64,000 bases of DNA, taken from positions 248,001 through 312,000 of the forward strand of contig NZ_SRUO01000004.1 in the NCBI RefSeq assembly GCF_004791025.1. Reading direction: 5' to 3'. The position numbers and the translations under genes are program-made. The number at the start of each line of letters is the position of its first letter. Position 1 is the first letter of the stretch. The stretch is from Mesorhizobium sp. M4B.F.Ca.ET.203.01.1.1. Lineage in GTDB: Bacteria > Pseudomonadota > Alphaproteobacteria > Rhizobiales > Rhizobiaceae. Positions 8,088 through 53,549 of the stretch are shown piece by piece. The notes under the pieces are model-generated. The model searched no databases. It worked only from the letters and a program-made list of their open reading frames with translations, and had not been told where the DNA came from.

Positions 8088-10178
8088 TCAGCTGTCATGA
8101 AAATGGTTGTAAACCAGCTTCGCCATCTGCTCGGAGATGCCGTCGACCTTGACCAGATCCTCGACCGCGGCACGGCTGACCGCCTTGGCGGTGCCGAAAT
8201 GCAAAAGCAGCGCTCGCTTGCGGCCGGGGCCGATGCCGGCGATCTCGTCGAGCGGGCTCTTGACCATCTCCTTCTTGCGGCGGGCGCGGTGGGAGCCGAT
8301 GGCGAAGCGGTGCACCTCGTCGCGCAGGCGCTGGACGAAATAGAGCACGGGATCGCGCACCGGCAGGGTGAAGGAGTCCCTGCCCCGGACGAAGAAGCGC
8401 TCGCGGCCGGCGTCGCGATCCTGGCCCTTGGCGATGCCGATCGCGGCGACGCGGTCCTCGATGCCGAGATCGGCGAGGATCTTGCGCACCGCCGTCATCT
8501 GGCCCTGGCCGCCGTCGATCAGGATGACGTCGGGCCAGGCCGGGAAGGCTCCATTGCCGCCGACAAGATCGTCGGCCGTTTCGTCCTCGACTTCGGCAGC
8601 CGCCACCTCGCTTGAGGGCTGGACATCGCCATGCTCCTTCAGCAAGCGCGAAAAACGCCGCTCCATCACCTCGCGCATCATGCCGAAATCGTCGCCAGGC
8701 GTGATCTCGGTCGAGCGGATGTTGAATTTGCGGTATTGGTTCTTCACGAAACCTTCGGGCCCGGCAACGACCATGGCGCCGACGGCGTTGGTGCCCATGA
8801 TGTGCGAGTTGTCGTAGACCTCGATGCGCACCGGCCGCTTGGCCAGGCCGAAGGTCTCGGCAAAACCGGTAAGCAGGCGCGCCTGCGTCGAGGTTTCGGC
8901 CAGCCGTCGGCCGAGCGCCTCGCGCGCGTTCTGCAGCGCGTTGTCGGTCAGGTCCTTCTTCTCGCCGCGCTGCGGCACCGAGATCGACACCTTGCGGCCG
9001 GCGCGGGTCGAGAGCGCCTCGGCGAGCAGATCCTGCTCCTCGACGGCAAGCGAGAGCAGGATGGCACGCGGCGTCGGCTTGTCGTCATAGAACTGCGCCA
9101 GGAACGAGCCCAGCACTTCCGATCCCTCCAGCGCCGGGTCGGCCTTGGGGAAATAGGCTCGGTTGCCCCAGTTCTGGCCGGTGCGGAAGAAGAACACCTG
9201 GATGCAGGTCTGGCCGCCCTCCTGGTGGATGGCGAAAACGTCGGCCTCCTCGACGGTTTGCGGGTTGATGCCCTGATGCGCCTGCACATGCGAGAGCGCG
9301 GCCAGCCGGTCGCGATAGATGGCGGCACGCTCGAAATCGAGCTCCTCGGACGCCTGCTGCATGGCGGTCGAGATCTCGGTCTTCACCTTGAGGCTGCGAC
9401 CGGAGAGGAAATCCTTCGCCTCGGCGACCAGCCCGGCATAATCCTCATGCGAGATCTCGCCGGTGCACGGACCGGCGCAGCGCTTGATCTGGTAGAGCAG
9501 GCACGGCCGGGTGCGGTTCTCGTAGAAGGAATTGGTGCAGCTTCTCAAAAGAAAGGCGCGCTGCAGCGAGTTGATGGTGCGGCCGACCGCGCCGGCCGAG
9601 GCAAAGGGGCCGAAATAGTCGCCTTTGCGCGAGCGCGCGCCGCGATGCTTGTAGATGCCGGGCGAGACATGGTCGCCGGTCAAGAGGATGTAGGGGAACG
9701 ATTTGTCGTCCCGCATCAGCACGTTGAAACGGGGTCGCAGCCGCTTGATGAGGTTCGCCTCGAGCAGCAGCGCCTCGATCTCGGTGCGGGTGACGACGAA
9801 CTCCATCGTCGCCGTCTCGCGCACCATGCGGCCGATGCGCAGCGTGTGGAAGCGCCCTTGCGCGTAGTTGGTGACGCGCTTCTTCAGGCTGCGCGCCTTG
9901 CCGACATAGAGCACATCGCCGGCAGAGTTCATCATGCGATAGACGCCGGGCGCGTTAGGCAGCCGCTTGACCAGCGTCTGGATCACCTCGGCGCCGACCA
10001 TGCCGTCGGCGTCTCCGGCATGCGGCGTCCAGTCTATGGCGGTGAAGGCGACGTCCGGTCCGGCCGGGACGGCTTCCGGCTCCACGATCTCCTCGGCCGC
10101 ATCGTCCTCGAGATCGATCTCGGGGGGCAGGTCGTCGGCAGCGCCGCGCGTCTTGTGTTTTTGCTCTGCGGGACTCAT
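8088..10178 (-). CDS. uvrC: Excinuclease ABC subunit C
   Basis: The 696-residue nuclease makes both incisions in nucleotide excision repair. Domains run in order: an acidic N-terminal extension of about 60 residues, a GIY-YIG nuclease (about 70-155, with Gly78-Val-Tyr and Tyr91-Val-Gly), a UVR motif that binds UvrB, the RNase-H-like nuclease (Glu-Val-Tyr-Asp-Asn-Ser-His motif) and two C-terminal helix-hairpin-helix units. The ATG at 10178 overlaps the stop of the SDR gene as ATGA and has GGTGGA directly upstream, so I prefer it to the ATG-less extension to 10211. The N-terminal acidic tail is longer than in E. coli UvrC. Confidence 0.97.
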
Positions 10179-43013: not shown

Positions 43014-43020
43014 CAAAAAC

Positions 43021-43599
43021 ATGACTGGCAACCTGAGCAGGATCGTGCGTTTGGTGGCGATCCTGAACCTTGCCTATTTCGGGATAGAATTTGCCATTGC
43101 CGTCCGGATCGGGTCCGTATCGCTATTTGCCGACAGCATCGATTTTCTGGAGGATGCGTCGATCAATCTCCTGATCCTGGTCGGGCTGGGTTGGGCGGCC
43201 CGCAATCGGGCGCGGCTTGGAATGCTGCTCGCCGGCGTACTCCTGGTCCCGGCTTTGGCCACGCTATGGACCGCATGGCAAAAGCTCCATCTTCCGGTTC
43301 CGCCCTCGCCCGTACCACTCACTCTCACGGCGATGGGTGCGATCCTCGTGAACCTGTCATGCGCACTCATGCTCGCGCGTTATCGCCATCATGGAGGAAG
43401 CCTCTCCCGCGCCGCGTTCCTGTCGGCGCGCAACGATGTCCTTGCCAACGTAGCGATCATCGCTGCCGGTCTGGTCACGGCATTCCTGTGGAATTCGGCC
43501 TGGCCCGATATCATCGTCGGGCTTGCCATCGCTGTCTTGAACGCCGATGCCGCCCGCGAGGTTTTCAGTGCCGCGAGGCGCGAGCAGGCCGAAAGTTGA
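43021..43599 (+). CDS. Transmembrane-only cation diffusion facilitator
   Basis: The 192-residue protein has six spans like cation diffusion facilitators, with the TM2 motif Ser-Leu-Phe-Ala-Asp38-Ser-Ile-Asp41-x3-Asp45. In TM5 the usual His-x3-Asp metal site reads Ser135-x3-Asp139. The cytoplasmic C-terminal metal-binding domain (about 80 residues) is absent, and the frame ends cleanly, so this looks like a natural short form and not a truncation. Substrate could be zinc, iron, manganese or something else. It is probably cotranscribed with the OmpA-like gene. Confidence 0.8.
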   Translation: MTGNLSRIVRLVAILNLAYFGIEFAIAVRIGSVSLFADSIDFLEDASINLLILVGLGWAARNRARLGMLLAGVLLVPALATLWTAWQKLHLPVPPSPVPLTLTAMGAILVNLSCALMLARYRHHGGSLSRAAFLSARNDVLANVAIIAAGLVTAFLWNSAWPDIIVGLAIAVLNADAAREVFSAARREQAES

Positions 43600-43675
43600 A
43601 TCCGACATGACACATTCAGGCGGCCTGGTTGTGATGCCTCTTCCCCGAAGATCGTGCCGGGCACGGCAATGGAAC

Positions 43676-44266
43676 TCAGAACGTATCGAAGCGACGCTCC
43701 ACCTCGCGCGCGAACATTTCCCGCTTTTCGTCCGATATGCTGTGAACGGAGTATCGCGACAGGTACAGATGCCGCACGTCCCGGCCGCACATGGTCTTCA
43801 GGCCGCGCAGCAGCACCTTCTTTCCGGGGTTCTGCATATAGAGTTGGGTGTACCACCACGGCGACCCGCATGTGGTGACCACGCCCATGCGGCGGATATT
43901 GAGCAGCGAAGGCTTGATCAGGCCGTCATCGGGCGGCACCTCGTAAGCGATGCCTGGGCGCCATACGCGATCGAAATAGCCTTTCAGTATGGCGGGCATG
44001 CCCGACCACCAGGTCGGAAAGCAGAAGACGCATGCCTCTGCCCATAACAGCGCATCGACATAGACCTGCAGATCCTTCGGCACCTGGGAGGGATCGTAAT
44101 GGCCACGCCATTCCTCGGGCAGCATCGCCGGATTGAAACCCATCTTGTACAGGTCGAAGTCGATGACTTCGTCGCCTCTCGCCTTGAGCGTCTTGACGAT
44201 GCGCTGGTGAAGCGACGCCAAATAGCTGTCAGCCGCCGGGTGCGCGTAGAGTACGTTGACCTTCAT
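43676..44266 (-). CDS. NAD(P)H-quinone oxidoreductase, flavodoxin fold
   Basis: The 196-residue flavoprotein belongs to the NQO/MdaB/KefF-like flavodoxin-fold group, with Tyr-Ala-His-Pro-x-x-x-Ser near 8-15, Phe-Pro-Thr-Trp-Trp-Ser-Gly-Met-Pro-Ala-Ile-Leu-Lys-Gly-Tyr-Phe-Asp near 83-99, and Thr-Thr-Cys-Gly near 130. It should reduce quinones with two electrons using FMN or FAD. The gene stands alone, converging on the cation efflux gene. Confidence 0.88.
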   Translation of the reverse strand: MKVNVLYAHPAADSYLASLHQRIVKTLKARGDEVIDFDLYKMGFNPAMLPEEWRGHYDPSQVPKDLQVYVDALLWAEACVFCFPTWWSGMPAILKGYFDRVWRPGIAYEVPPDDGLIKPSLLNIRRMGVVTTCGSPWWYTQLYMQNPGKKVLLRGLKTMCGRDVRHLYLSRYSVHSISDEKREMFAREVERRFDTF

Positions 44267-44375
44267 CGGATGACGCCCTCAAGCCTTCCACCTCCGAAGG
44301 TACTAGTCGAAGCTAATAGGCTTGCCTAGCTGCCGAGGCACGCCCTTGCGTTTGGCGTCATCCTTGCCGCTTCGG

Positions 44376-44744
44376 CTAGGCCACGCAGATCCCCGGCACC
44401 GCGACCTTCTCGAACAGATGCGGCGACGCGACGGCCGAGGACGGATAGGCCGAGATCTTCGCCCTGAACTGCGGATGCGTGAAGGCGGCACGGAAGGCGG
44501 CGGTCGATTCCCACACGGCATAGTTCAGGTAGGTCGGGCTGTCGCCGATCGCGCGGTGAAGCTGGGTCGAGATGAAGCCCGGCTGCTGCTTCATGAACAC
44601 GGCGTCGTCCTGCCAGACGTCGAGGAAGGTCTGCTCGTCGGCCTTGTCGAGCGTGAAGACGTTCACCAGCACGACGGCGGTGGCATCGATGGCGACCTGG
44701 CGGTCGATCGGGAAAGCGGGGTCGAGGGGGCGCATATGGGTCAT
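44376..44744 (-). CDS. Antibiotic biosynthesis monooxygenase (ABM) family protein
   Basis: The 122-residue protein has the dimeric ferredoxin-like ABM fold: Val-Leu-Val-Asn-Val-Phe, Phe-Met-Lys-Gln-Gln-Pro-Gly-Phe-Ile, and Tyr-Leu-Asn-Tyr-Ala-Val-Trp-Glu-Ser. Members include cofactor-free quinol monooxygenases and haem-degrading enzymes; nothing here picks between them. The ATG at 44744 is preferred (AAGGAA upstream). It diverges from a MarR regulator across a short region with clear repeats, so it is likely MarR-controlled. Confidence 0.85.
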   Translation of the reverse strand: MTHMRPLDPAFPIDRQVAIDATAVVLVNVFTLDKADEQTFLDVWQDDAVFMKQQPGFISTQLHRAIGDSPTYLNYAVWESTAAFRAAFTHPQFRAKISAYPSSAVASPHLFEKVAVPGICVA

Positions 44745-44767
44745 GAGGGTTTCCTTCAATTGGTGTT

Positions 44768-44821
44768 ATGATGTCAATCTGTTACGATGCCTACATATGC
44801 ATTTGACAACATGATGTCAAT
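44768..44821. promoter_or_regulatory. MarR-type operator repeats in divergent region
   Basis: ATGATGTCAAT occurs twice in direct orientation (44768-44778 and 44811-44821), 43 bases apart, about four helical turns. The second copy completes a palindrome TTGACA-N6-TGTCAA (44803-44820), a form typical for MarR dimers. It would cover both divergent promoters. Confidence 0.75.
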
Positions 44822-44839
44822 ATCGATACAAGGTGACAA

Positions 44840-45316
44840 ATGTCCAGCACGAAACGAACACCGCCCGGCAAGGCCTTGAGCGACCTCATCCTTGACCTGT
44901 TCAGGTTGAACAGCCGCATCAGCGCGGCCGGCGACAGGCTGGTCGCAGATCTCGGCCTGACCAGCGCTCGCTGGCAGGTGCTGGGCGCCATCGTCGCCGC
45001 CGCGCATCCGCAGCCGGTGGCGTGGCTGGCGCGGGATCTCGGCGCAAACCGCCAGAACGTGCAGCGCATCGTCAACGATCTCGAAAGCGAAGGGCTGGTC
45101 GCCTTCAGGGTAAACCCGCATCACCGGCGGGCGCAGCTTGTCGTGCTGGCCGACAAGGGGCGTGCAGCCTACGACGCGGCCATGCGCCTGCAGGCCCCCT
45201 GGATCAACAACCTCGCCGACGGGCTTTCGGTCGAGGACATCAACACCATGCACGGCGTGATCACGGCGCTGCGCAAAAAACTGGAAGGCAACGACGACGC
45301 TGAAGAGCAGAGCTGA
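44840..45316 (+). CDS. MarR family transcriptional regulator
   Basis: The 158-residue protein has the MarR winged helix: an N-terminal dimer helix, a recognition segment Val-Ala-Trp-Leu-Ala-Arg-Asp-Leu-Gly-Ala-Asn-Arg-Gln-Asn-Val-Gln-Arg (about 56-72), then the wing with Asn-Pro-His-His-Arg-Arg-Ala-Gln. Its likely targets are its own gene and the divergent ABM monooxygenase gene through the operators at 44768-44821. The ligand is not known. It ends in an acidic tail. Confidence 0.9.
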   Translation: MSSTKRTPPGKALSDLILDLFRLNSRISAAGDRLVADLGLTSARWQVLGAIVAAAHPQPVAWLARDLGANRQNVQRIVNDLESEGLVAFRVNPHHRRAQLVVLADKGRAAYDAAMRLQAPWINNLADGLSVEDINTMHGVITALRKKLEGNDDAEEQS

Positions 45317-45514
45317 CCGCTGCGGAACGGTGGCTGTTCCATCCACTTGCTGAGCGCCGTCCCGATCCTGGCGCTGCTCGGTTCGCAGGATCGCCGGCTT
45401 TGGACCGCCCGAGCCGGCTGACGATGGCGCGGCTCCGTTGCCAAGCGCGCCGATTTCGCGCAACGGTTCCGCCAACCGCAATCACCGCCGTGGGCTTGCC
45501 GATGCCAATGTCCC

Positions 45515-46675
45515 GTGCCCGATAGCACTGTCCTCGTTACCGGAGCGCGCGCGCCGGTGGCGCTGCATCTGGCGCGGCTGCTGCATGGCGCCGGGCGACG
45601 CGTGATCCTGGCCGACACCCCTGCCCGGCCGATCGCCGCCGCCAGCATAGCCTGCGCGCTCTATCGCCGCCTGCCGCCGCCGCGCTTCGAGCCGGCGGCC
45701 TATGCCGAGGCCGTCGAGGCGCTGGTGCGCGCCGAAGGGATTGGCCTGGTCATCCCGACCTGCGAGGAGGTTTTTCATCTGGCGCTCGCCTGGCGCGGCC
45801 GCGCGATCTCGGCGCGCCTGTTCGCCCCCGGAATCGAGCTGCTTGCCGAGGTCCACAACAAGCATGCCTTCATCCGGCTGGCCGAACGGCTTGGCCTCGC
45901 CGTGCCGCAAACGACGCTGCTGCAATCCAGAGCCGATCTGGAAGCGGTGCGCGGCCGCGCGCGCGAACTGGTGTTCAAACCGGTATGGTCGCGCTTCGCC
46001 AGCCAGGTGCTTTTGCGCCCCTCGCCCGACGAACTCGATGCCGTCAACCCCTCGCCCGCCATGAAGTGGGTAGCGCAGCGTTTCGTGACGGGCGAGGAGA
46101 TCAGCGCCTATGCGGTGGCGCGCGCGGGCAAGCTCAAGGCGTTCGCGCTCTATCGCTCGCTCTACCGTGCCGGCAAGGGCGCCGGAATCTTCTTCGAACG
46201 GATCGAGGATGTCTGGGCGCGCGAGCTGGTCGAGCGCATCGCCGGTGGCACGTCATGGACCGGGCAAATCTCCTTCGACCTGATGCGGCAGGCGGACGGA
46301 ACAGTGCTGCCGCTGGAGTGCAACCCGCGCGCCGTCAGCGGCCTGCATTTCTTCCGCGATCCGGCGCGCTTCGCGGACGCCGTGCTGGGAGACGGGCCCG
46401 AGGTCAGACCCGATGTCACCGCGCCCCAGACAGTGCGGCTCGCCATGTGGATCTACGGGCTGCCGGCGGCCTTGCGCTCCGGTGGCCTCGGCCGCTTCAG
46501 CAAGGCGATGCGCGGTGCGGAGGAACTGCTCGACTGGCCCGGCGATCCTGCACCGGTCAAGGCGCAGTGGCCGGCGCTGGCCGAGATCGCCGGCATCGCG
46601 CTTCGAGGACGCATCGGCCTGCAGGCGGCGTCAACGCGCGACATCGAATGGAACGGGCCTGAGGAGCTCTTCTGA
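45515..46675 (+). CDS. ATP-grasp family ligase
   Basis: The 386-residue protein has an N-terminal Rossmann-like pre-ATP-grasp part (Val-Leu-Val-Thr-Gly-Ala-Arg-Ala-Pro) and an ATP-grasp core (about 115-290), with Phe-Lys-Pro-Val near 150, Val-Ala-Gln-Arg-Phe-Val-Thr-Gly-Glu-Glu near 190 and Leu-Glu-Cys-Asn-Pro-Arg near 270 holding the magnesium ligands. Such enzymes join a carboxylate to an amine, thiol or hydroxyl by an acyl phosphate. The start is a GTG with no strong ribosome site. It converges on the Rieske gene of the neighbouring operon, 45 bases away, and may serve the same pathway. Confidence 0.85.
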   Translation: MPDSTVLVTGARAPVALHLARLLHGAGRRVILADTPARPIAAASIACALYRRLPPPRFEPAAYAEAVEALVRAEGIGLVIPTCEEVFHLALAWRGRAISARLFAPGIELLAEVHNKHAFIRLAERLGLAVPQTTLLQSRADLEAVRGRARELVFKPVWSRFASQVLLRPSPDELDAVNPSPAMKWVAQRFVTGEEISAYAVARAGKLKAFALYRSLYRAGKGAGIFFERIEDVWARELVERIAGGTSWTGQISFDLMRQADGTVLPLECNPRAVSGLHFFRDPARFADAVLGDGPEVRPDVTAPQTVRLAMWIYGLPAALRSGGLGRFSKAMRGAEELLDWPGDPAPVKAQWPALAEIAGIALRGRIGLQAASTRDIEWNGPEELF

Positions 46676-46720
46676 GGTCCGGCCCGAAGGAACGACACGC
46701 CGAGTTCTCCAATGCACCGT

Positions 46721-47719
46721 CTAAAGCTCGATCTGGTGCACGCGCGGCTCTTCCGCTGCCGGGGGCAGCTCGCCCGCGATGATCGCGGCGATGTCTCGGC
46801 GCAGGAAATCGAGCGGCCCGATCACCGGCAGCGCTGGCGGGGCAAAACGGGCGTTGTCGCTCGCCGATTTCAGCACGCGGCGATCCTGCTGCAACGCGAT
46901 GTTGAACAGCGGTTTGAAGGCAAGCGCCTTGATCCCGCCGAACCAGCCCTGGCGCGGGCCGATCAGCCAGTCGACGCCCTCGACGGTGCGCTCGTCGGCC
47001 TGGCGCAGATGGAAGGTGGTGGCGAGCGCAAGCCCATCCTTGCCCCAATATTCGAGTTCGGCGATGCCGGGGTAACGGAAGCGGCCGATGGTTTTCGCGC
47101 GCTCGCCTTCCAATAGCCGGCTGATCAGCCCCTGCTGTCGATCCTCGCCGGTGTAGCAAGCCTCGACCCAGCCCTCGCCGCCGGTCACTTCGACGCGCAC
47201 GAGATGGCGCTTCGAACCCAGGCCACGCAGCAGGCCCTTGTGGGTGAAGTGGGTGTGGGTGGCATCGAGGATGTTTTCGGCCGCGTCGATCACCGTCGAT
47301 TGCGTCGAGCTGCGCACCCGCCGCACGACGACGTTCTTGCCCTGCATGCAATGGAGATAGGGTTCGGCCTCGGGCGTGCCCGACGAGACGAAGACGACGC
47401 CGTCGCGCTCGATGGCGCCAAAGCGGCGCACCCGGTAATGCGGCATCTCGCCGACATGACCGGGGATGGCGGTGCAGCGCCCTTCCCCGTCATAGCGCCA
47501 GCCGTGATAGGGGCACTCGATCTCGCCGCCGACGAGCTTGCCGGTCGACAGTTCGACCAGCCGGTGCGGGCAGCGGTCGAACAGCGCCGCAATGCCTTGC
47601 GCCGAGCGGAACAGCACCAGCGGCTGGCCGTCGAACAGGATGCGCTTCGGCTTGCCCCTGATGTCGCCCGACAGCGCCACGGCCTGCCAGTGATCCTTCC
47701 GCTTTTGGCGCTCGCTCAA
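46721..47719 (-). CDS. Rieske non-haem iron oxygenase
   Basis: The 332-residue protein has an N-terminal Rieske [2Fe-2S] domain (Cys50-x-His52 and Cys69-x2-His72) and a catalytic domain with the mononuclear iron motif Asn149-x2-Asp152-x2-His155-x4-His160. This is the alpha-subunit layout of Rieske oxygenases that hydroxylate, desaturate or demethylate; no beta subunit or reductase gene is adjacent, so a reductase must come from elsewhere. It is the last gene of a six-gene operon and overlaps the preceding GNAT-like gene as ATGA. Confidence 0.93.
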   Translation of the reverse strand: MSERQKRKDHWQAVALSGDIRGKPKRILFDGQPLVLFRSAQGIAALFDRCPHRLVELSTGKLVGGEIECPYHGWRYDGEGRCTAIPGHVGEMPHYRVRRFGAIERDGVVFVSSGTPEAEPYLHCMQGKNVVVRRVRSSTQSTVIDAAENILDATHTHFTHKGLLRGLGSKRHLVRVEVTGGEGWVEACYTGEDRQQGLISRLLEGERAKTIGRFRYPGIAELEYWGKDGLALATTFHLRQADERTVEGVDWLIGPRQGWFGGIKALAFKPLFNIALQQDRRVLKSASDNARFAPPALPVIGPLDFLRRDIAAIIAGELPPAAEEPRVHQIEL

Positions 47720-48861
47720 AGTTCGAACCTCCTGAGCAGGGGAATGCCTACCCGCGCCAGCACGGTTTCCATGACGCGGATCGCCACGCGTCGGCGACGC
47801 GGCAAATGACCGGCATAGACGGCGTTGTATTCGATCGCCGCGACGGCGCCGCGCCGTCGCTTGAAGCTTGCGGCCCCGGCGCTCATGTTGAAGAACAGGC
47901 CGCGCGCCGTGGCATGGTCCTGCGCCATCGCCATCACCATGCGATAGAGGCCCTCCTCTATCGGCAGCCCGGTGTCGTAGCCGACGATCGGCTGGGTCAG
48001 CGTGCCGCCGTTCTCGAACAGGCCGGTGACGGCGACGAGTTCGCCGCCCGGCCGACGCAGGCCGACCAGGCTGAGAACGCCGCGCCGGTGCATCTCGGCG
48101 ATGTAGCGAGCGGTGTAGTGCGGGTTGAGCGGCGTGTATTTTTCCAGATAGAGCATGCTGTAGAGCTGTTCCGCGCGCGCATAGTCGGGATCGCTGAAAT
48201 CGGCATCGCCGACGCGCTTGAAGGGCGTGCTGCCGAGCCGCTTGCGGTCGCGCTTCATGTCGTTGCTCATGGCCGGCGCCGAACCGCGGTCGGCGAAGAT
48301 GTAGATCTGGCGCGCCGCCAGCATGCGAAAGCCTTCCGCTTTCAGCGCCGCGATGGTGGCCGGGTCGGCGATCTCGTTCAGCGAACGGATGACGATGGCG
48401 CGGTCCGGGAAGCGCGCCGCAAGGTCGGCGCGCAAGGCGGCGATTGCGGCACGGTCGAGCAGCGGCACCGGGTTGGTCGAGTAGAGCCAGTTGTTGAGCT
48501 GAACCTGATGGTCGAGGCCGCTCGCCCGCACCAGCGGCGCGCAGGCGCCGATCAGCGCCTTGAGCGAGCGCCGCAGCGACGGGTGCGCGATGAAGTTGCG
48601 CGTCTCGTCGACGGCATAGTCGATATAGGCGCCGGACGGGCAGCAGATGTAGCAGTTGGGCGCGTCGCTGGTGTCGTTCAGCGTCAGCGGGAAGGTGCGG
48701 CCGGCGACCTCCACGCTTTCGACCGACGTGGTAAGGTTGGCAACGAGATCGCGTACCGGCACGTCGTTGAAGAGCCGGACGAAAGCCTCGACCTTGCCGG
48801 GGCTGTTCTGGACCCGGTCCGCCTGCTGAAGCGGCCTCTCCATCATGGCGGCCGGGCTCAC
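47716..48861 (-). CDS. GNAT-fold acyltransferase-like protein
   Basis: The 381-residue protein resembles GNAT/FemAB-type acyltransferases in its second half (about 190-360), with a Lys-Arg-Asp-Arg-Lys-Arg-Leu basic patch, Tyr-Thr-Pro-Leu-Asn, a Leu-Val-Ala-Val-Thr-Gly core strand and Phe-Phe-Asn-Met-Ser-Ala-Gly-Ala. The first half holds a Cys-Tyr-Ile-Cys-Cys-Pro-Ser motif. The start is placed at a GTG at 48861, because GGGAG lies seven bases upstream and the GTGA overlaps the previous stop, as at other junctions here; ATG 48846 and ATG 48882 are alternatives. The acceptor is unknown. Confidence 0.7.
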   Translation of the reverse strand: MSPAAMMERPLQQADRVQNSPGKVEAFVRLFNDVPVRDLVANLTTSVESVEVAGRTFPLTLNDTSDAPNCYICCPSGAYIDYAVDETRNFIAHPSLRRSLKALIGACAPLVRASGLDHQVQLNNWLYSTNPVPLLDRAAIAALRADLAARFPDRAIVIRSLNEIADPATIAALKAEGFRMLAARQIYIFADRGSAPAMSNDMKRDRKRLGSTPFKRVGDADFSDPDYARAEQLYSMLYLEKYTPLNPHYTARYIAEMHRRGVLSLVGLRRPGGELVAVTGLFENGGTLTQPIVGYDTGLPIEEGLYRMVMAMAQDHATARGLFFNMSAGAASFKRRRGAVAAIEYNAVYAGHLPRRRRVAIRVMETVLARVGIPLLRRFEL

Positions 48862-50114
48862 GGCGCCACTCCCAGCCGGCATTCGACGCGGCGCAATTTG
48901 CGGTCGGTCTCCAGCGGCAGCGGCGCCCGCACCAGATCGACCGTCGCCATCGCCTTGCGCGCCGCGAGCAGCGCGAGCACCGCCTGATGCGCGGCAGTCG
49001 CCGCCTCGTCGGCGAGATCCGGCGCGAGCCTCAGCTCAATGGCATCGGTCGCCGACTGCACCAGCCGGAAATCGTCGATGCGACGGTCGGCCTTGAGCAC
49101 CGCATTGCGCAGTATGTCGGGGGTGAGCAGGACCTGGCCGGCGGCCGATTCCAGCCGGAAGACGTCGTCCATGCGGCCAACGATCTCGTCGACGCAGCGC
49201 AGCGGCGAACCGCATTTGCAAGGCTGCTCAGAGAGCCGCAACAGGTCGTTCATCCGGTATCGCGCCATGATCTGGGTCTGACGACGGAAGGCCGTGACCA
49301 GCGGCGTCACCAGCCCGTCGCCGGCCGGCTCGAATTCGAAGAACACCGAATCCTCGGCGAGATGCAGGCCGCCCTGCCGGCAGGTCACCGCGAACAGGCC
49401 CTCCGTCGCCATGTAGATCTGGTCGAGGGGCAGCCGGAAGAAATTCTCGATAACCGGACGGTCGACCGGATCGAGCGTCTCGGCGGCCGAGAGGACGCGT
49501 TGCGGCGAGAGCCGAAAGCCCGACGCCGCGAAATGCCGCAACATCTTCGGCGGCGCGATGATCACCGTTGGCTGAAAGTCCTCGAGCGTCGCGCGCCAAT
49601 GTTCCGGGCCGAGCGTCAGGCCGAAGAAGCGCAGGTCGATGCGCCGCGATTTGCGGGCGCTGTCGTACAGTCCCGTGTTCTGCGGCAGGATGACGGCGAC
49701 GCGCATTCCGCGCCACAGAAGATCGGGTGCCGCCTTGGCGAGGAGCGTACCCAGCCAGCGGTATTTTTCCGCCTCGGAGATGACGAACAGGCCGCGATTG
49801 CCGGATGTACCGGTACTCGCGCCAACCGTCAGGTCGCCGAGGCGGCAGTCGGCGGAAGCGGCGGCCCAGGCATCGCGGGCCGACACGCCGCCGATATTGA
49901 AGCGCTCGAAATTCGCCATCAGCAGCGCCTTGTCGGTCACAGGCAGGTCGCCGAGCTGTCGCGGCGCCTGGCCATAGAACGGCGCCAGCGGCAGGTCGTG
50001 GTCGAGCCAACGACGCAGGGTGGCCGCTTGCCAGCGCTCGAAGGCCGGCCGGCTTTTGCGCGAAACCCAGCGCGTCAGCACGAAGGAACCGATGGCTTCC
50101 GTGAGCCCGTTCAT
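48858..50114 (-). CDS. PaaK/F390-synthetase-like adenylate-forming enzyme
   Basis: The 418-residue protein matches the F390-synthetase-related group of adenylate-forming enzymes, with Gly-Ala-Ser-Thr-Gly-Thr-Ser-Gly-Asn-Arg-Gly (about 99-109) as the phosphate loop. It also has a Tyr-Met-Ala-Thr-Glu-Gly segment near 239, a Cys-Lys-Cys-Gly-x-x-Leu-Arg-Cys cluster near 304 and a Gly-Arg-Met-Asp-Asp motif near 319. It should activate a carboxylic acid as acyl-AMP, then pass it to CoA or another acceptor. The ATG at 50114 overlaps the stop of the MBL gene as ATGA. Substrate unknown. Confidence 0.87.
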   Translation of the reverse strand: MNGLTEAIGSFVLTRWVSRKSRPAFERWQAATLRRWLDHDLPLAPFYGQAPRQLGDLPVTDKALLMANFERFNIGGVSARDAWAAASADCRLGDLTVGASTGTSGNRGLFVISEAEKYRWLGTLLAKAAPDLLWRGMRVAVILPQNTGLYDSARKSRRIDLRFFGLTLGPEHWRATLEDFQPTVIIAPPKMLRHFAASGFRLSPQRVLSAAETLDPVDRPVIENFFRLPLDQIYMATEGLFAVTCRQGGLHLAEDSVFFEFEPAGDGLVTPLVTAFRRQTQIMARYRMNDLLRLSEQPCKCGSPLRCVDEIVGRMDDVFRLESAAGQVLLTPDILRNAVLKADRRIDDFRLVQSATDAIELRLAPDLADEAATAAHQAVLALLAARKAMATVDLVRAPLPLETDRKLRRVECRLGVAP

Positions 50115-50950
50115 CCGGCCCCCGCCGCCAGTTCGTGCGCAGTCAGGTCGTACTGCGTCATAGCAGGGTCGTGGCAGAGCATCACCTGTCCACCCGCCGC
50201 CTGGAAGCGACGCAGCGTCTCGCAGGTCGGGCCGATGACGGCAACATCCTCGGCGATGAGGCTGGAGGGAAAGCCGGGGGCGCGCTTCGGATCGAGTGCG
50301 GCGAGCAGCCATTGCGCGTCGACGGCATAGAGCAGCGGCCGCTCCAGCCCGGCGAACAAAAGGCCGAACTGGCCGTCGGCATGGCCGGGCAGATCGACCG
50401 CCACGACGCTCCCGTCGCCGAAGAGATCGGCTCCGCCTGGCACGCCGCCGCGCGTGTCGATCCGCCGCTTCATGGACAGCCCGTCGAGCCTTGCCTCGAA
50501 GTCGGCCGGGAAGAGTTCGGTGAAGACGCCGTGGCGGAGGTTCTGCCTCGGCGTGCGCGCCTTGACGCGAGCCCAGGCGGAGCCGCTGGCGATGAAACGG
50601 GCGTTGGGAAACAGCGACAGACCCGAGATGTGGTCGGCGTGGAAATGGCTAACGATGACGGCGCGGACATCGCCGGGCGCAAGGCCGAAGCGCTGGAGCA
50701 CCGTCAGCACCTGCTCGGTCGCGTTGAGTTCAGGCCTGAGCACCGCTCCGTAGAGGCGCAGCATCCAGCCGCGCCCCTCGCCCGTGACAGACTCCGGCGT
50801 GTAGCCGGTGTCGACCAGCACCGGCCCGGCCTGCGGATGCAGGATCAAGCCGTAGCGGACGCGCAGCCGCACACTGTGCCAGCCGCCGCCGCGCAGGATC
50901 AGCCGTTCGGCGGCACTGACCCAGGCACTGTTGGCAAAGTGGACCTTCAT
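50111..50950 (-). CDS. MBL-fold metallo-hydrolase
   Basis: The 279-residue protein has the metallo-beta-lactamase signature His102-Phe-His104-Ala-Asp106-His107, a later Gly-His (about 190) and an Asp near 212, completing a two-metal site. It is cytoplasmic by sequence (no signal peptide). In this operon it could act as a thioesterase or lactone hydrolase that releases the product, a task other clusters give to alpha/beta hydrolases; this is inference. It overlaps the neighbours on both sides by four bases. Confidence 0.9.
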   Translation of the reverse strand: MKVHFANSAWVSAAERLILRGGGWHSVRLRVRYGLILHPQAGPVLVDTGYTPESVTGEGRGWMLRLYGAVLRPELNATEQVLTVLQRFGLAPGDVRAVIVSHFHADHISGLSLFPNARFIASGSAWARVKARTPRQNLRHGVFTELFPADFEARLDGLSMKRRIDTRGGVPGGADLFGDGSVVAVDLPGHADGQFGLLFAGLERPLLYAVDAQWLLAALDPKRAPGFPSSLIAEDVAVIGPTCETLRRFQAAGGQVMLCHDPAMTQYDLTAHELAAGAG

Positions 50951-51930
50951 GCCGGGCCTCCGCCGGCGAAGGTGCGGTCGAGCCCCTGCGCGAAGGGGAT
51001 TTTCGGCGCCCAGCCGAGCAGGCGGCGCGCCTTGGCGAGGTCGAGACTTTGCGCGTAGGCGAAGAGGCCGAGCCCATAGCGCGTCACCGGCGGCTCGGGA
51101 CGGCCGGGAAGAGCGAGCGCTACCGCCTCCATGGCGCCGGCGGCCAGCATCGCCGGCCAGAGCGGCATCCGCCGCCAGCGCGCTGTGATACCGGCGCGGG
51201 CGCAGGCCTCGTCGGCGATGCGGCGCACCGGCAGCGGCTCGCCGCCCGAGACGTTGAAGACCTCGCCTTCCGCCTCCGGCGGCGCCGCAAGCGCCACCAT
51301 CACCGCATCGACGACATCGTCGACATGGGTGAGATCGATGCGGGCGCGGCCGTCGCGGAAGACCGGCAGCGGGCGGTTCTTCGCCGCCTTGATGAGGCGC
51401 GGCAGCAACGCGCGGTCGCCGGCGCCGTAGATGCCGCGCGGCCGCAACACTACCGGGTGGATGGCGGGCGCCGCCAGCACCAGCCGCTCAGCCTCGCGTT
51501 TGGTGCGGGCATAATGGTTGACCGGATCGGGCAAGGCGGCGTCCTCGGTGAGACCGAGCTGGTCGCGAAAGGCGAAGCACACGGACGGGCTTGAAATGTG
51601 GACGAAGCGGCTCACACCTTGCCGGGCCGCGAAATCGAGCAGGTTTTTCGTCGCCGTGACATTGGCCGCCTCGAAATCCGCCAGGCGCCCGAAAGGCGCG
51701 GAGAGTGCCGCGCAATGGATGATCCGCTCGACCCTGCCCAGTCTCGGATCGAGCGCGCTTTCGAGCGGCCGCGACAAGTCATGGCGGATGATCCGATGGC
51801 CGGCGGCCTCCAGCGCAGCACAACATGCCGCATCGCGGCCGAGCCCGAGCGCCAGCGTGCCGGACGCGGCCAGCCTTGCCAGCACATGGGAGCCCAGAAA
51901 GCCGCTGGCGCCGGTGACGAGCACGGCCAT
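50947..51930 (-). CDS. NAD(P)-dependent epimerase/3-beta-HSD-like reductase
   Basis: The 327-residue extended-SDR protein has Val-Thr-Gly-Ala-Ser-Gly-Phe-Leu-Gly-Ser-His at 5-15, His-Cys-Ala-Ala near 73 and a Tyr-Ala-Arg-Thr-Lys catalytic pair near 143. The pattern is close to the 3-beta-hydroxysteroid-dehydrogenase/OleD group, which reduces 3-keto groups of long acyl chains, and less to nucleotide-sugar epimerases. It lies two bases after the KAS III gene, fitting a condensation-then-reduction order. The upstream extension to 52479 is only a shadow of the KAS III gene. Confidence 0.87.
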   Translation of the reverse strand: MAVLVTGASGFLGSHVLARLAASGTLALGLGRDAACCAALEAAGHRIIRHDLSRPLESALDPRLGRVERIIHCAALSAPFGRLADFEAANVTATKNLLDFAARQGVSRFVHISSPSVCFAFRDQLGLTEDAALPDPVNHYARTKREAERLVLAAPAIHPVVLRPRGIYGAGDRALLPRLIKAAKNRPLPVFRDGRARIDLTHVDDVVDAVMVALAAPPEAEGEVFNVSGGEPLPVRRIADEACARAGITARWRRMPLWPAMLAAGAMEAVALALPGRPEPPVTRYGLGLFAYAQSLDLAKARRLLGWAPKIPFAQGLDRTFAGGGPA

Positions 51931-51932
51931 CG

Positions 51933-52922
51933 TCAAACCTCCAGCGCCATGCCGCCGAAGGACACGCCGGCCGAGGTGCCGAGGAACAGCAGCCTGGCGC
52001 CCGACGCGATCCGGTCCCCGCGCCGCGCGACATCGAGCGCGAACGGAATGGAGGCGGCGATCTGGTTGCCGTAGCGGGCGGAGATGTCGACGAGTTTTTC
52101 CGGCGCGAAGCCGGTCTGGCGCGCCATATGCGCCAGCGCGAACGGGCTTGCCTGATGCGGCACGACGAGGTCGACATCCGCGTGCCGCCAGCCGGCGCGC
52201 TGCAAAAGCTCGGTTACGAAGCCGCCGAAATGGCGCGCTGTGACGCGGAACAGTTCCTTGCCGTCCATGTGGAACAGGCTGTGGCGGGCGAATTCCTCCG
52301 GCTGGCGATGGAAGTCGAAACGCGTGCCGCCCGAGCCGATGCCGCAGGCCTCGTAGGCCGAAGGATAGGTGCGCATCAGATTGGCCACCACCCTGCCCCC
52401 GCCCGGCCCTGCCTTCTGCAACACCGCCGCCGCCGCGCCGTCGCCGAAGAGAGCGGCGACCTCCGGCTGGTCGCGCCACGGCAGCGCGCGCGAGGCGACC
52501 TCCGAGGAGAACACCAGCGCCGTGCTGAATTGCCCGGCCTCGATCAGGCGCGAAGCGGTCTCGAAGGCGGTGAGGAAGCCGAGGCAGGTGCTGTTGACGT
52601 CGAAGGCGGCGGCCGAACCGTCTGGCAGGCCAAGGCGCTGCATGACGAGTGGCGCGGTCGCCGGCAGCGGCTGATACGGCACGCCGCAGCCGCCGATGAT
52701 CAGATCGACCTCACAGGCTTCCAGCCCGGCATCGGTCAGCGCCAGACTGGCCGCCGCGCAGGCCAGATCGATCTGCGATTCGCCTTCGCAGACGTAGCGC
52801 TCGACGACACCGGTGGCGGCTTCGAGCCGACCTTGGGCAAGGCCAAGCCGTTCCTCCAGCGCGCGCGAGGTCACGCACTGGGCCGGCACCGCCCCACCGG
52901 TTCCGATGATCTTGATACGCAT
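51933..52922 (-). CDS. KAS III-family 3-oxoacyl synthase
   Basis: The 329-residue thiolase-fold enzyme has the Cys-His-Asn triad of beta-ketoacyl synthase III: Cys113 in Asn-Ser-Thr-Cys-Leu-Gly, His255 in Val-Pro-His-Gln-Ala-Ser and Asn285 in Tyr-Gly-Asn-Gln. The Gln after Asn285 replaces the usual Thr of the FabH Gly-Asn-Thr-Ser, which sets it apart from housekeeping FabH. It should condense an acyl-CoA with malonyl-ACP, or two acyl-CoAs as OleA does. It is the first gene of the operon. The ATG at 52922 is preferred to a TTG at 52928. Confidence 0.9.
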   Translation of the reverse strand: MRIKIIGTGGAVPAQCVTSRALEERLGLAQGRLEAATGVVERYVCEGESQIDLACAAASLALTDAGLEACEVDLIIGGCGVPYQPLPATAPLVMQRLGLPDGSAAAFDVNSTCLGFLTAFETASRLIEAGQFSTALVFSSEVASRALPWRDQPEVAALFGDGAAAAVLQKAGPGGGRVVANLMRTYPSAYEACGIGSGGTRFDFHRQPEEFARHSLFHMDGKELFRVTARHFGGFVTELLQRAGWRHADVDLVVPHQASPFALAHMARQTGFAPEKLVDISARYGNQIAASIPFALDVARRGDRIASGARLLFLGTSAGVSFGGMALEV

Positions 52923-53099
52923 TCTCAACCCGCCGAATGAGTTCGCGTCTATCTAATCCATAAAGCGGATCAGGGGCGATGGCCATGATGGTGGCCCAAG
53001 GGTGGGAGCTATCCGGGGGGCTCGCATCGCCCCAGAAATCGTCTATCGGCGCCGCGCCGACGTTTCCTATCTAATGATTGGCGCCCATCAGTATGGAAC

Positions 53100-53549
53100 C
53101 TACGCCTTGCGCTCCCAGCGCCGATCCGGCGTCTGCTGCCAGTAGGTCACCGTGTGGCCGGCCTCCTTCATCGTTTTCCAATGGCTGCGCGCCCCATCCA
53201 ATTGCGCGGCGTCATGGCCGTCGAACAGGAAGACGGCGCGCTCGTAGCCCGAGAGGTCGGCAGGCGCCGCGCCGTCGACCAGGAAACGGATCTGCGCGGC
53301 ATTCGGGTTGCCCTCGCCGGTGGTGAGCAGGATCGGCTGCTCGCCCGGATAGGCTTCACGGTCGGTGGCATGCGCCAGGAAGGAATCGTCGCGGAACGTC
53401 CACAGATGCTGGTCGAGCGCGTCGCGCCGCTCCTCGGTGCCGGTCTGCACGACGGCGCGCCAGCCGCGGTCGACGCTGCGCTCGAGCAGGCCGGGCAGCG
53501 CCTCCTCGAGCGTCGATTCGGTCAGGTGGTAGAACAGGATCTCGGCCAT
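53100..53549 (-). CDS. holC: DNA polymerase III chi subunit
   Basis: The 149-residue protein fits HolC of alphaproteobacteria: Phe-Tyr-His-Leu near the N-terminus, Leu-x-Glu-Arg-Ser near 23, a Leu-Trp-Thr-Phe-Arg-Asp-Asp-Ser-Phe-Leu-Ala-His segment near 49-60, Pro-Ile-Leu-Leu near 72 and a C-terminal helix with Trp-Lys. Chi binds single-strand binding protein and joins it to the clamp loader. It lies 19 bases after pepA and they probably form an operon, a common order in this group. Confidence 0.9.
   Translation of the reverse strand: MAEILFYHLTESTLEEALPGLLERSVDRGWRAVVQTGTEERRDALDQHLWTFRDDSFLAHATDREAYPGEQPILLTTGEGNPNAAQIRFLVDGAAPADLSGYERAVFLFDGHDAAQLDGARSHWKTMKEAGHTVTYWQQTPDRRWERKA

Follow-up and report, generated by a model that had tools for sequence, protein, structure and literature searches.

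Which product does a tightly packed six-gene operon of Mesorhizobium sp. M4B.F.Ca.ET.203.01.1.1 direct, and do its genes belong to one pathway? The operon lies on the minus strand of contig NZ_SRUO01000004.1, within a stretch of 64,000 nucleotides that was analysed as a whole (the window), and spans window positions 52922-46721. It codes for a KAS III-like condensing enzyme, a short-chain dehydrogenase/reductase (SDR), a metallo-beta-lactamase-fold (MBL) hydrolase, an adenylate-forming enzyme of the TIGR02304 family, a GNAT-like protein and a Rieske oxygenase. An original prediction, made by reading the window alone, had taken these six genes as an undescribed pathway to a lipid-type product. 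Following conservation, family tests and comparison with known systems, the locus stands as one uncharacterised pathway, to which a seventh gene is added. We tentatively propose a hydroxylated acyl lipid carrying an amino-acid-type head group as its product, and regard the locus as the rhizobial form of a family of lipid loci with wide distribution.

Results and discussion

A conserved seven-gene locus in the genus

The TIGR02304 gene was strongly present in 18 of the 37 genomes of the genus sample, the window's own included, and the 61 genomes searched gave weak matches in two further genomes, both outside the genus. The GNAT-like gene was found in the same 18 genomes and in none of the remaining 19; in a larger sample it occurred in 31 of 121 genomes, all of the same genus, the TIGR02304 gene being scored in 18 of these. 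Eighteen further genus copies of the locus were read, 17 from the 61-genome search and one from the order sample. All seven genes were present in unchanged arrangement in 17 of them, and in the 18th (L148) the contig stops before the KAS III gene, with the other six genes in place. The seven genes are under purifying selection, the median ratio of nonsynonymous to synonymous substitution (dN/dS) against the window copy being 0.16-0.20 for each of them (17 copies for KAS III, 18 for the others). This selection, together with the retained order and convergent seventh gene, supports the predicted single functional unit.

The seventh member codes for an ATP-grasp ligase (45515..46675, plus strand; PRK06849-like, 305.7 bits against a cut-off of 406) and is convergent with the operon; it had been missed in the original prediction, so that the set of six was incomplete. 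A chance neighbour was considered and rejected: of 26 loci in Alphaproteobacteria, 21 have the gene convergent and two have it in the operon direction, while in three it was not found.

The genomic site is also shared. In all eight copies compared by blastn (8 of the 18), the genes for DNA polymerase III subunit chi and for pepA are no more than about 3 kb away from the operon and at the same end of it as in the window, and the chi-pepA site occurs without the operon in all eight operon-less genomes examined (of 19 without it). One such genus genome, L217, has degraded ATP-grasp remnants adjoining chi (about 8400-8775); these pieces may be a loss scar, and fit loss of the whole locus, ATP-grasp gene included, in the L217 lineage. 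On the other side, the stretch 43014-45436 (flavodoxin-like reductase, ABM protein, MarR regulator) had no blastn match in L147 or L217 with both flanks aligning, and so varies beside the conserved locus.

Recomputation returned the six genes, their coordinates and their junctions exactly as predicted, with zero internal stops. The junctions are +2, -4, -4, -4 and -4: a 2-base gap lies 3' of the KAS III gene, and the four others are 4-base overlaps (ATGA, ATGA, GTGA and TTGA). The overlap at the GNAT-like gene requires a GTG start at 48861, an alternative in-frame ATG at 48882 giving a 25-base overlap. Fixed stoichiometry had been read from this coupling, a step we do not follow, as overlaps do not show stoichiometry. 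A 177-base gap (52923..53099, no strand) separates the operon from the chi gene, and the genus alignments extend to about 52950-52991. No sigma-70-like promoter was found in 46600-53150, and the 64-kb window held no Rfam elements or tRNAs.

A four-gene core in distant bacteria

The core of the wider family consists of the genes for KAS III, the OleD-like reductase, the MBL hydrolase and the TIGR02304 adenylating enzyme. A scan of labelled genomes yielded at least 588 confirmed relatives, of which the best 80 loci were used. These are mostly from Paenibacillus and its kin, a lean to Bacillota that stems from the use of a Paenibacillus protein as the first query row; the two loci outside Bacillota (L108 and L109) are metagenome-assembled genomes and could be misbinned. 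For genes up to 6.5 kb from TIGR02304 in the best 80 loci, the counts are 80 for KAS III, 78 for MBL, 77 for SDR, 76 for ATP-grasp, 55 for GNAT-like and 2 for Rieske, and 75 loci hold all four core genes; the simple caller of open reading frames used on the loci may account for some missing genes. Loci L090 and L115 show the order KAS III-ATP-grasp-SDR-MBL-TIGR02304-ATP-grasp-GNAT-Rieske, and thus the window's full enzyme set exists in Bacillota too.

The window's arrangement is seen in 20 of the 26 alphaproteobacterial loci and, without KAS III, in one more at a contig end. One holds all seven genes with ATP-grasp in the operon direction, one holds ATP-grasp and Rieske with the GNAT-like gene absent, and three are without both Rieske and ATP-grasp. 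No scattering of the genes, the pattern that would speak against a shared pathway, was seen in these 26 loci. Clustering breaks down on Pseudomonas megaplasmids (L188 and L192): on one the genes are dispersed; these plasmids have either the core genes interspersed with uncharacterised ones or the TIGR02304 gene with only an ATP-grasp-like match nearby. On a Paraburkholderia plasmid (L186), ATP-grasp and GNAT-like genes come after the core, and an unannotated Rieske gene in two pieces lies downstream of this cluster (L186:11600-12500).

The TIGR02304 family is rare in even samples of the order and the phylum, its cut-off being passed in 8 of 397 and 7 of 398 genomes, respectively, with the window's own in both. 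The original prediction suggested a search for the set in other Hyphomicrobiales; the core reaches beyond that order and is also found in Bacillota, Fusobacterium and Escherichia coli. Of 5426 complete genomes of E. coli, 672 carry it, about one in eight; in strain LF82 it makes up the first four genes of a seven-gene operon (1296271-1303152; L224:5001-11882) at the tyrTV site, between narI and two tRNA-Tyr genes.

The genes flanking the core vary, most of them being of lipid or head-group type. In three loci of the order (two by Pfam, L164 by similarity) a DUF3419 gene sits between the TIGR02304 and GNAT-like genes, a slot filled by an ATP-grasp gene in L090, L115 and L186; DUF3419 includes the betaine-lipid enzyme BtaA. 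A GT21 glycosyltransferase gene adjoins the core in Fusobacterium and, by similarity, in Paenibacillus caui. Genes for PAP2, a fatty-acid hydroxylase and a desaturase accompany the core in the E. coli operon, with relatives in three further phylum genomes (L181-L183). A methyltransferase gene takes the slot of the GNAT-like gene in L163 and, on weaker evidence, a divergent sulfotransferase gene and a TetR gene adjoin the locus in Ketogulonicigenium and Paracoccus. Some downstream genes run against this pattern, coding for proteins of non-lipid type (VOC, RtcB, DUF2812, EamA, DJ-1, kinase-like and SUKH). We read the locus as a probable backbone module joined to exchangeable head-group modules.

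An ATP-grasp and GNAT-like gene pair with a 4-base overlap was also observed, without the core, on two Deinococcus plasmids (L193:5688-7936 and L223:4541-6798). The 13-15 kb read around these pairs held no KAS III, MBL, TIGR02304 or Rieske matches; close to one of the pairs there are two weak SDR matches.

Assignment of the enzymes

The six family calls of the original prediction agree with the Pfam and NCBIfam matches. The KAS III-like enzyme (51933..52922, minus strand; 329 aa) has Cys113-His256-Asn286 by alignment and an HQxS signature. A housekeeping FabH role was rejected: the genome's own FabH (401.8 bits) is encoded on a separate contig (C11), and apart from the operon KAS III the genome holds three other FabH-like genes that score above 130 bits. 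In a tree of 30 rows the cluster enzymes fall outside the FabH group (split support 90/81), so that the operon enzyme is not a sole copy of the FabH clade. Their group also takes in MxnB, CorB and an enzyme of Priestia whose annotated surroundings are without a TIGR02304 gene; joint support is 92/92, and that for the core alone 43/0. Inner forks of the tree are weak, with 10 starred out of 27, and OleA and own_L034 sit on long branches; PqsD, DarB and PpyS were not among its rows, PqsD and DarB being compared through PDB and NCBIfam lists only. Our placement outside FabH is tempered by a passage of PMC4578411, in whose larger tree the FabH clade takes in MxnB and CorB. Different contigs of the genome carry two FabH-like paralogues that closely resemble each other (L031 and L032; branch lengths 0.046 and 0.066).

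The HQxS signature is present in 20 of 20 cluster KAS III enzymes and HQAN in none, while the seven FabH-like alignment rows have HQAN. At the position of the base glutamate of OleA, the 18 aligned core KAS III enzymes have Leu (7, the window copy among them) or Ile (11). The residue there is Val in MxnB and CorB, Phe or Ile in the FabH controls, Leu in two FabH-like paralogues and Glu in both OleA controls. A passage of PMC4578411 records that PpyS needs E105 and that MxnB and CorB have V94.

Further catalytic motifs of the operon enzymes are intact, TGTSG included. The SDR reductase (50947..51930, minus strand) has the YxxxK motif; its best NCBIfam model is OleD (NF042422), with 177.4 bits, far below the equivalog cut-off of 580. 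The MBL hydrolase (50111..50950, minus strand) has HxHxDH and is AHL-lactonase-like, with a best N-acyl-homoserine lactone (AHL) lactonase score of 76.4 bits against an equivalog cut-off of 390. The TIGR02304 enzyme (48858..50114, minus strand), which is F390 synthetase-related and PaaK-like, passes the curated cut-off of its family (265.1 against 251.9 bits). The Rieske oxygenase (46721..47719, minus strand, TTG start) belongs to a set in which CxH-CxxH is present in 7 of 7 copies; its iron ligands, DxxHxHxxH, were examined in the window copy.

Lastly, the GNAT-like protein (47716..48861, minus strand, GTG start; PF13480) shows in its predicted model the dual GNAT fold of the aminoacyl-tRNA-dependent transferases, with Sbb17, FemX and MprF of that family as best matches. 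Plain acyl transfer, the step originally predicted, is therefore not the likeliest one. Among PDB sequences neither the GNAT-like nor the ATP-grasp protein had a close relative, and the former had no match to an aminoacyl-tRNA-dependent transferase. A role in anti-phage defence was rejected, with zero PADLOC matches for the seven proteins.

Proposed biosynthesis and alternatives

From the observed gene order, co-conservation, selection, motifs, predicted folds, missing OleA base and exchange of lipid- or head-group-type genes next to the core, we infer reactions, substrates and product as follows. KAS III would join an acyl thioester to another acyl or malonyl unit, yielding a beta-keto thioester, which the OleD-like SDR could reduce to the beta-hydroxy form. 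The MBL hydrolase may then release the acid, or open a lactone, and the TIGR02304 enzyme may adenylate the released acid and transfer it to an acceptor, giving a common lipid backbone. An amino acid or amine would be attached by the ATP-grasp ligase and an aminoacyl group, probably from aminoacyl-tRNA, by the GNAT-like protein, the Rieske enzyme acting as a putative hydroxylase. A lipid-type product, as originally predicted, thus keeps its place as the best guess.

The best surviving alternative, which we nevertheless regard as unlikely, is a small amphiphile that acts as a diffusible signal or is antibiotic-like, built by the logic of alkyl pyrones, quinolones or lactones; the MBL enzyme would then serve as a thioesterase or in signal turnover. 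The best PDB sequence match of the KAS III is MxnB of pyrone formation (166 bits), with FabH 4ryb next (162.5 bits), and the likeness of the MBL enzyme to AHL lactonases would suit such a product. However, neither a Pseudomonas quinolone signal (PQS)-type set nor a polyketide synthase (PKS) set is present in the operon by Pfam and NCBIfam, and the recurrent hydroxylase, desaturase, glycosyltransferase and DUF3419 partners suit lipids better.

We hold a genuine Ole-type pathway to be improbable. Here two long acyl chains would be joined head to head and reduced, the adenylating enzyme would form a beta-lactone, and the MBL enzyme would open it in place of decarboxylation by OleB. The SDRs of the window, E. 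coli and Fusobacterium all have OleD as their nearest models, the KAS III shares HQxS with OleA and groups with the two-chain joiners MxnB and CorB, and the MBL enzyme is lactonase-like. The originally noted Ole likeness holds in this respect for the reductase, but not for the KAS III, as the OleA glutamate is absent in 18 of 18 core enzymes, nor for the adenylating enzyme, which is a TIGR02304 match; the SDR itself lies far under the OleD cut-off and no OleB was recognised in the operon. The plain Ole pathway was rejected on the missing glutamate and the SDR score. The Pfam and NCBIfam matches of the operon proteins include no OleC or OleB models, whose presence in the libraries was not checked.

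An aryl or amino-acid-derived metabolite, for which an aryl acid would be activated by the PaaK-like enzyme, lengthened by KAS III and hydroxylated on its ring by the Rieske enzyme, appears a poor candidate, since although the best solved-structure matches are phenylacetate-CoA ligase for the TIGR02304 enzyme and the aromatic-type Rieske demethylase DdmC for the oxygenase, a Rieske gene accompanies only 2 of the best 80 loci and E. coli has a fatty-acid hydroxylase and a desaturase instead.

Returning to the acyl lipid with an amino-acid-type head group, a broader and somewhat more speculative extension is plausible: the loci may define a phylum-spanning lipid class with its own four-enzyme backbone route, apart from glycerolipids, sphingolipids and Ole hydrocarbons. 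Interchangeable modules would supply its head groups (ATP-grasp with an aminoacyl-tRNA-dependent transferase in the rhizobial locus, BtaA-type homoserine transfer, a GT21 sugar, or desaturase and hydroxylase tailoring as beside the E. coli core). If true, this would be an overlooked bacterial lipid family with genes in rhizobia, Bacillota, Fusobacterium and the E. coli genomes counted above; it would give the TIGR02304 family a function and perhaps show aminoacyl-tRNA serving lipid biosynthesis in a new way. As carriers and non-carriers occur in one genus, at a known site, their lipids can be compared directly.

Comparison with known systems

Among the open-access papers listed, none on the cluster or its product was found, judged by title and the start of the abstract, and one may still be in print. 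An F390 synthetase-like gene appears in a ladderane-type fatty-acid cluster (a passage of PMC2649909), F390 synthetase is named in one table row of PMC5467263 and in a table row on a transposon mutant (PMC9823363), and a passage of PMC5501837 mentions it in the context of phenol degradation; none of these passages describes the six- or seven-gene set.

OleABCD resembles the locus in that a single cluster provides a condensing enzyme, an OleD-like reductase and an adenylate-forming enzyme. It differs in that here the OleA glutamate is missing, TIGR02304 and MBL enzymes stand in place of OleC and OleB, and head-group-type genes are added. Described ole clusters include one with proposed hydroxylation and glycosylation (a passage of PMC7064751); on that passage, they are the nearest published logic found, but are built on OleA and OleC. 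MxnB and CorB, from the myxopyronin and corallopyronin systems, are the closest characterised KAS III enzymes in our tree and share Cys-His-Asn, HQxS and the lack of the base Glu, whereas the operon is without a PKS; the exact branching is weakly supported. The GNAT-like protein differs from MprF, FemX and Sbb17 in its 8-15% identity to them and in having no MprF-type membrane domain.

The E. coli tyrTV-site cluster of LF82 has the core order KAS III-SDR-MBL-TIGR02304, but PAP2, hydroxylase and desaturase genes instead of the GNAT-like and Rieske genes, and no ATP-grasp gene was found within 6.5 kb (L024). The locus is also like the neighbourhood of TIGR02304 in general, a family of 'F390 synthetase-related protein' named by similarity only. 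Its relatives are surrounded by the same four-gene core and the window enzyme scores above its cut-off; to this core, the rhizobial version adds the GNAT-like gene, the Rieske gene and the convergent ATP-grasp gene.

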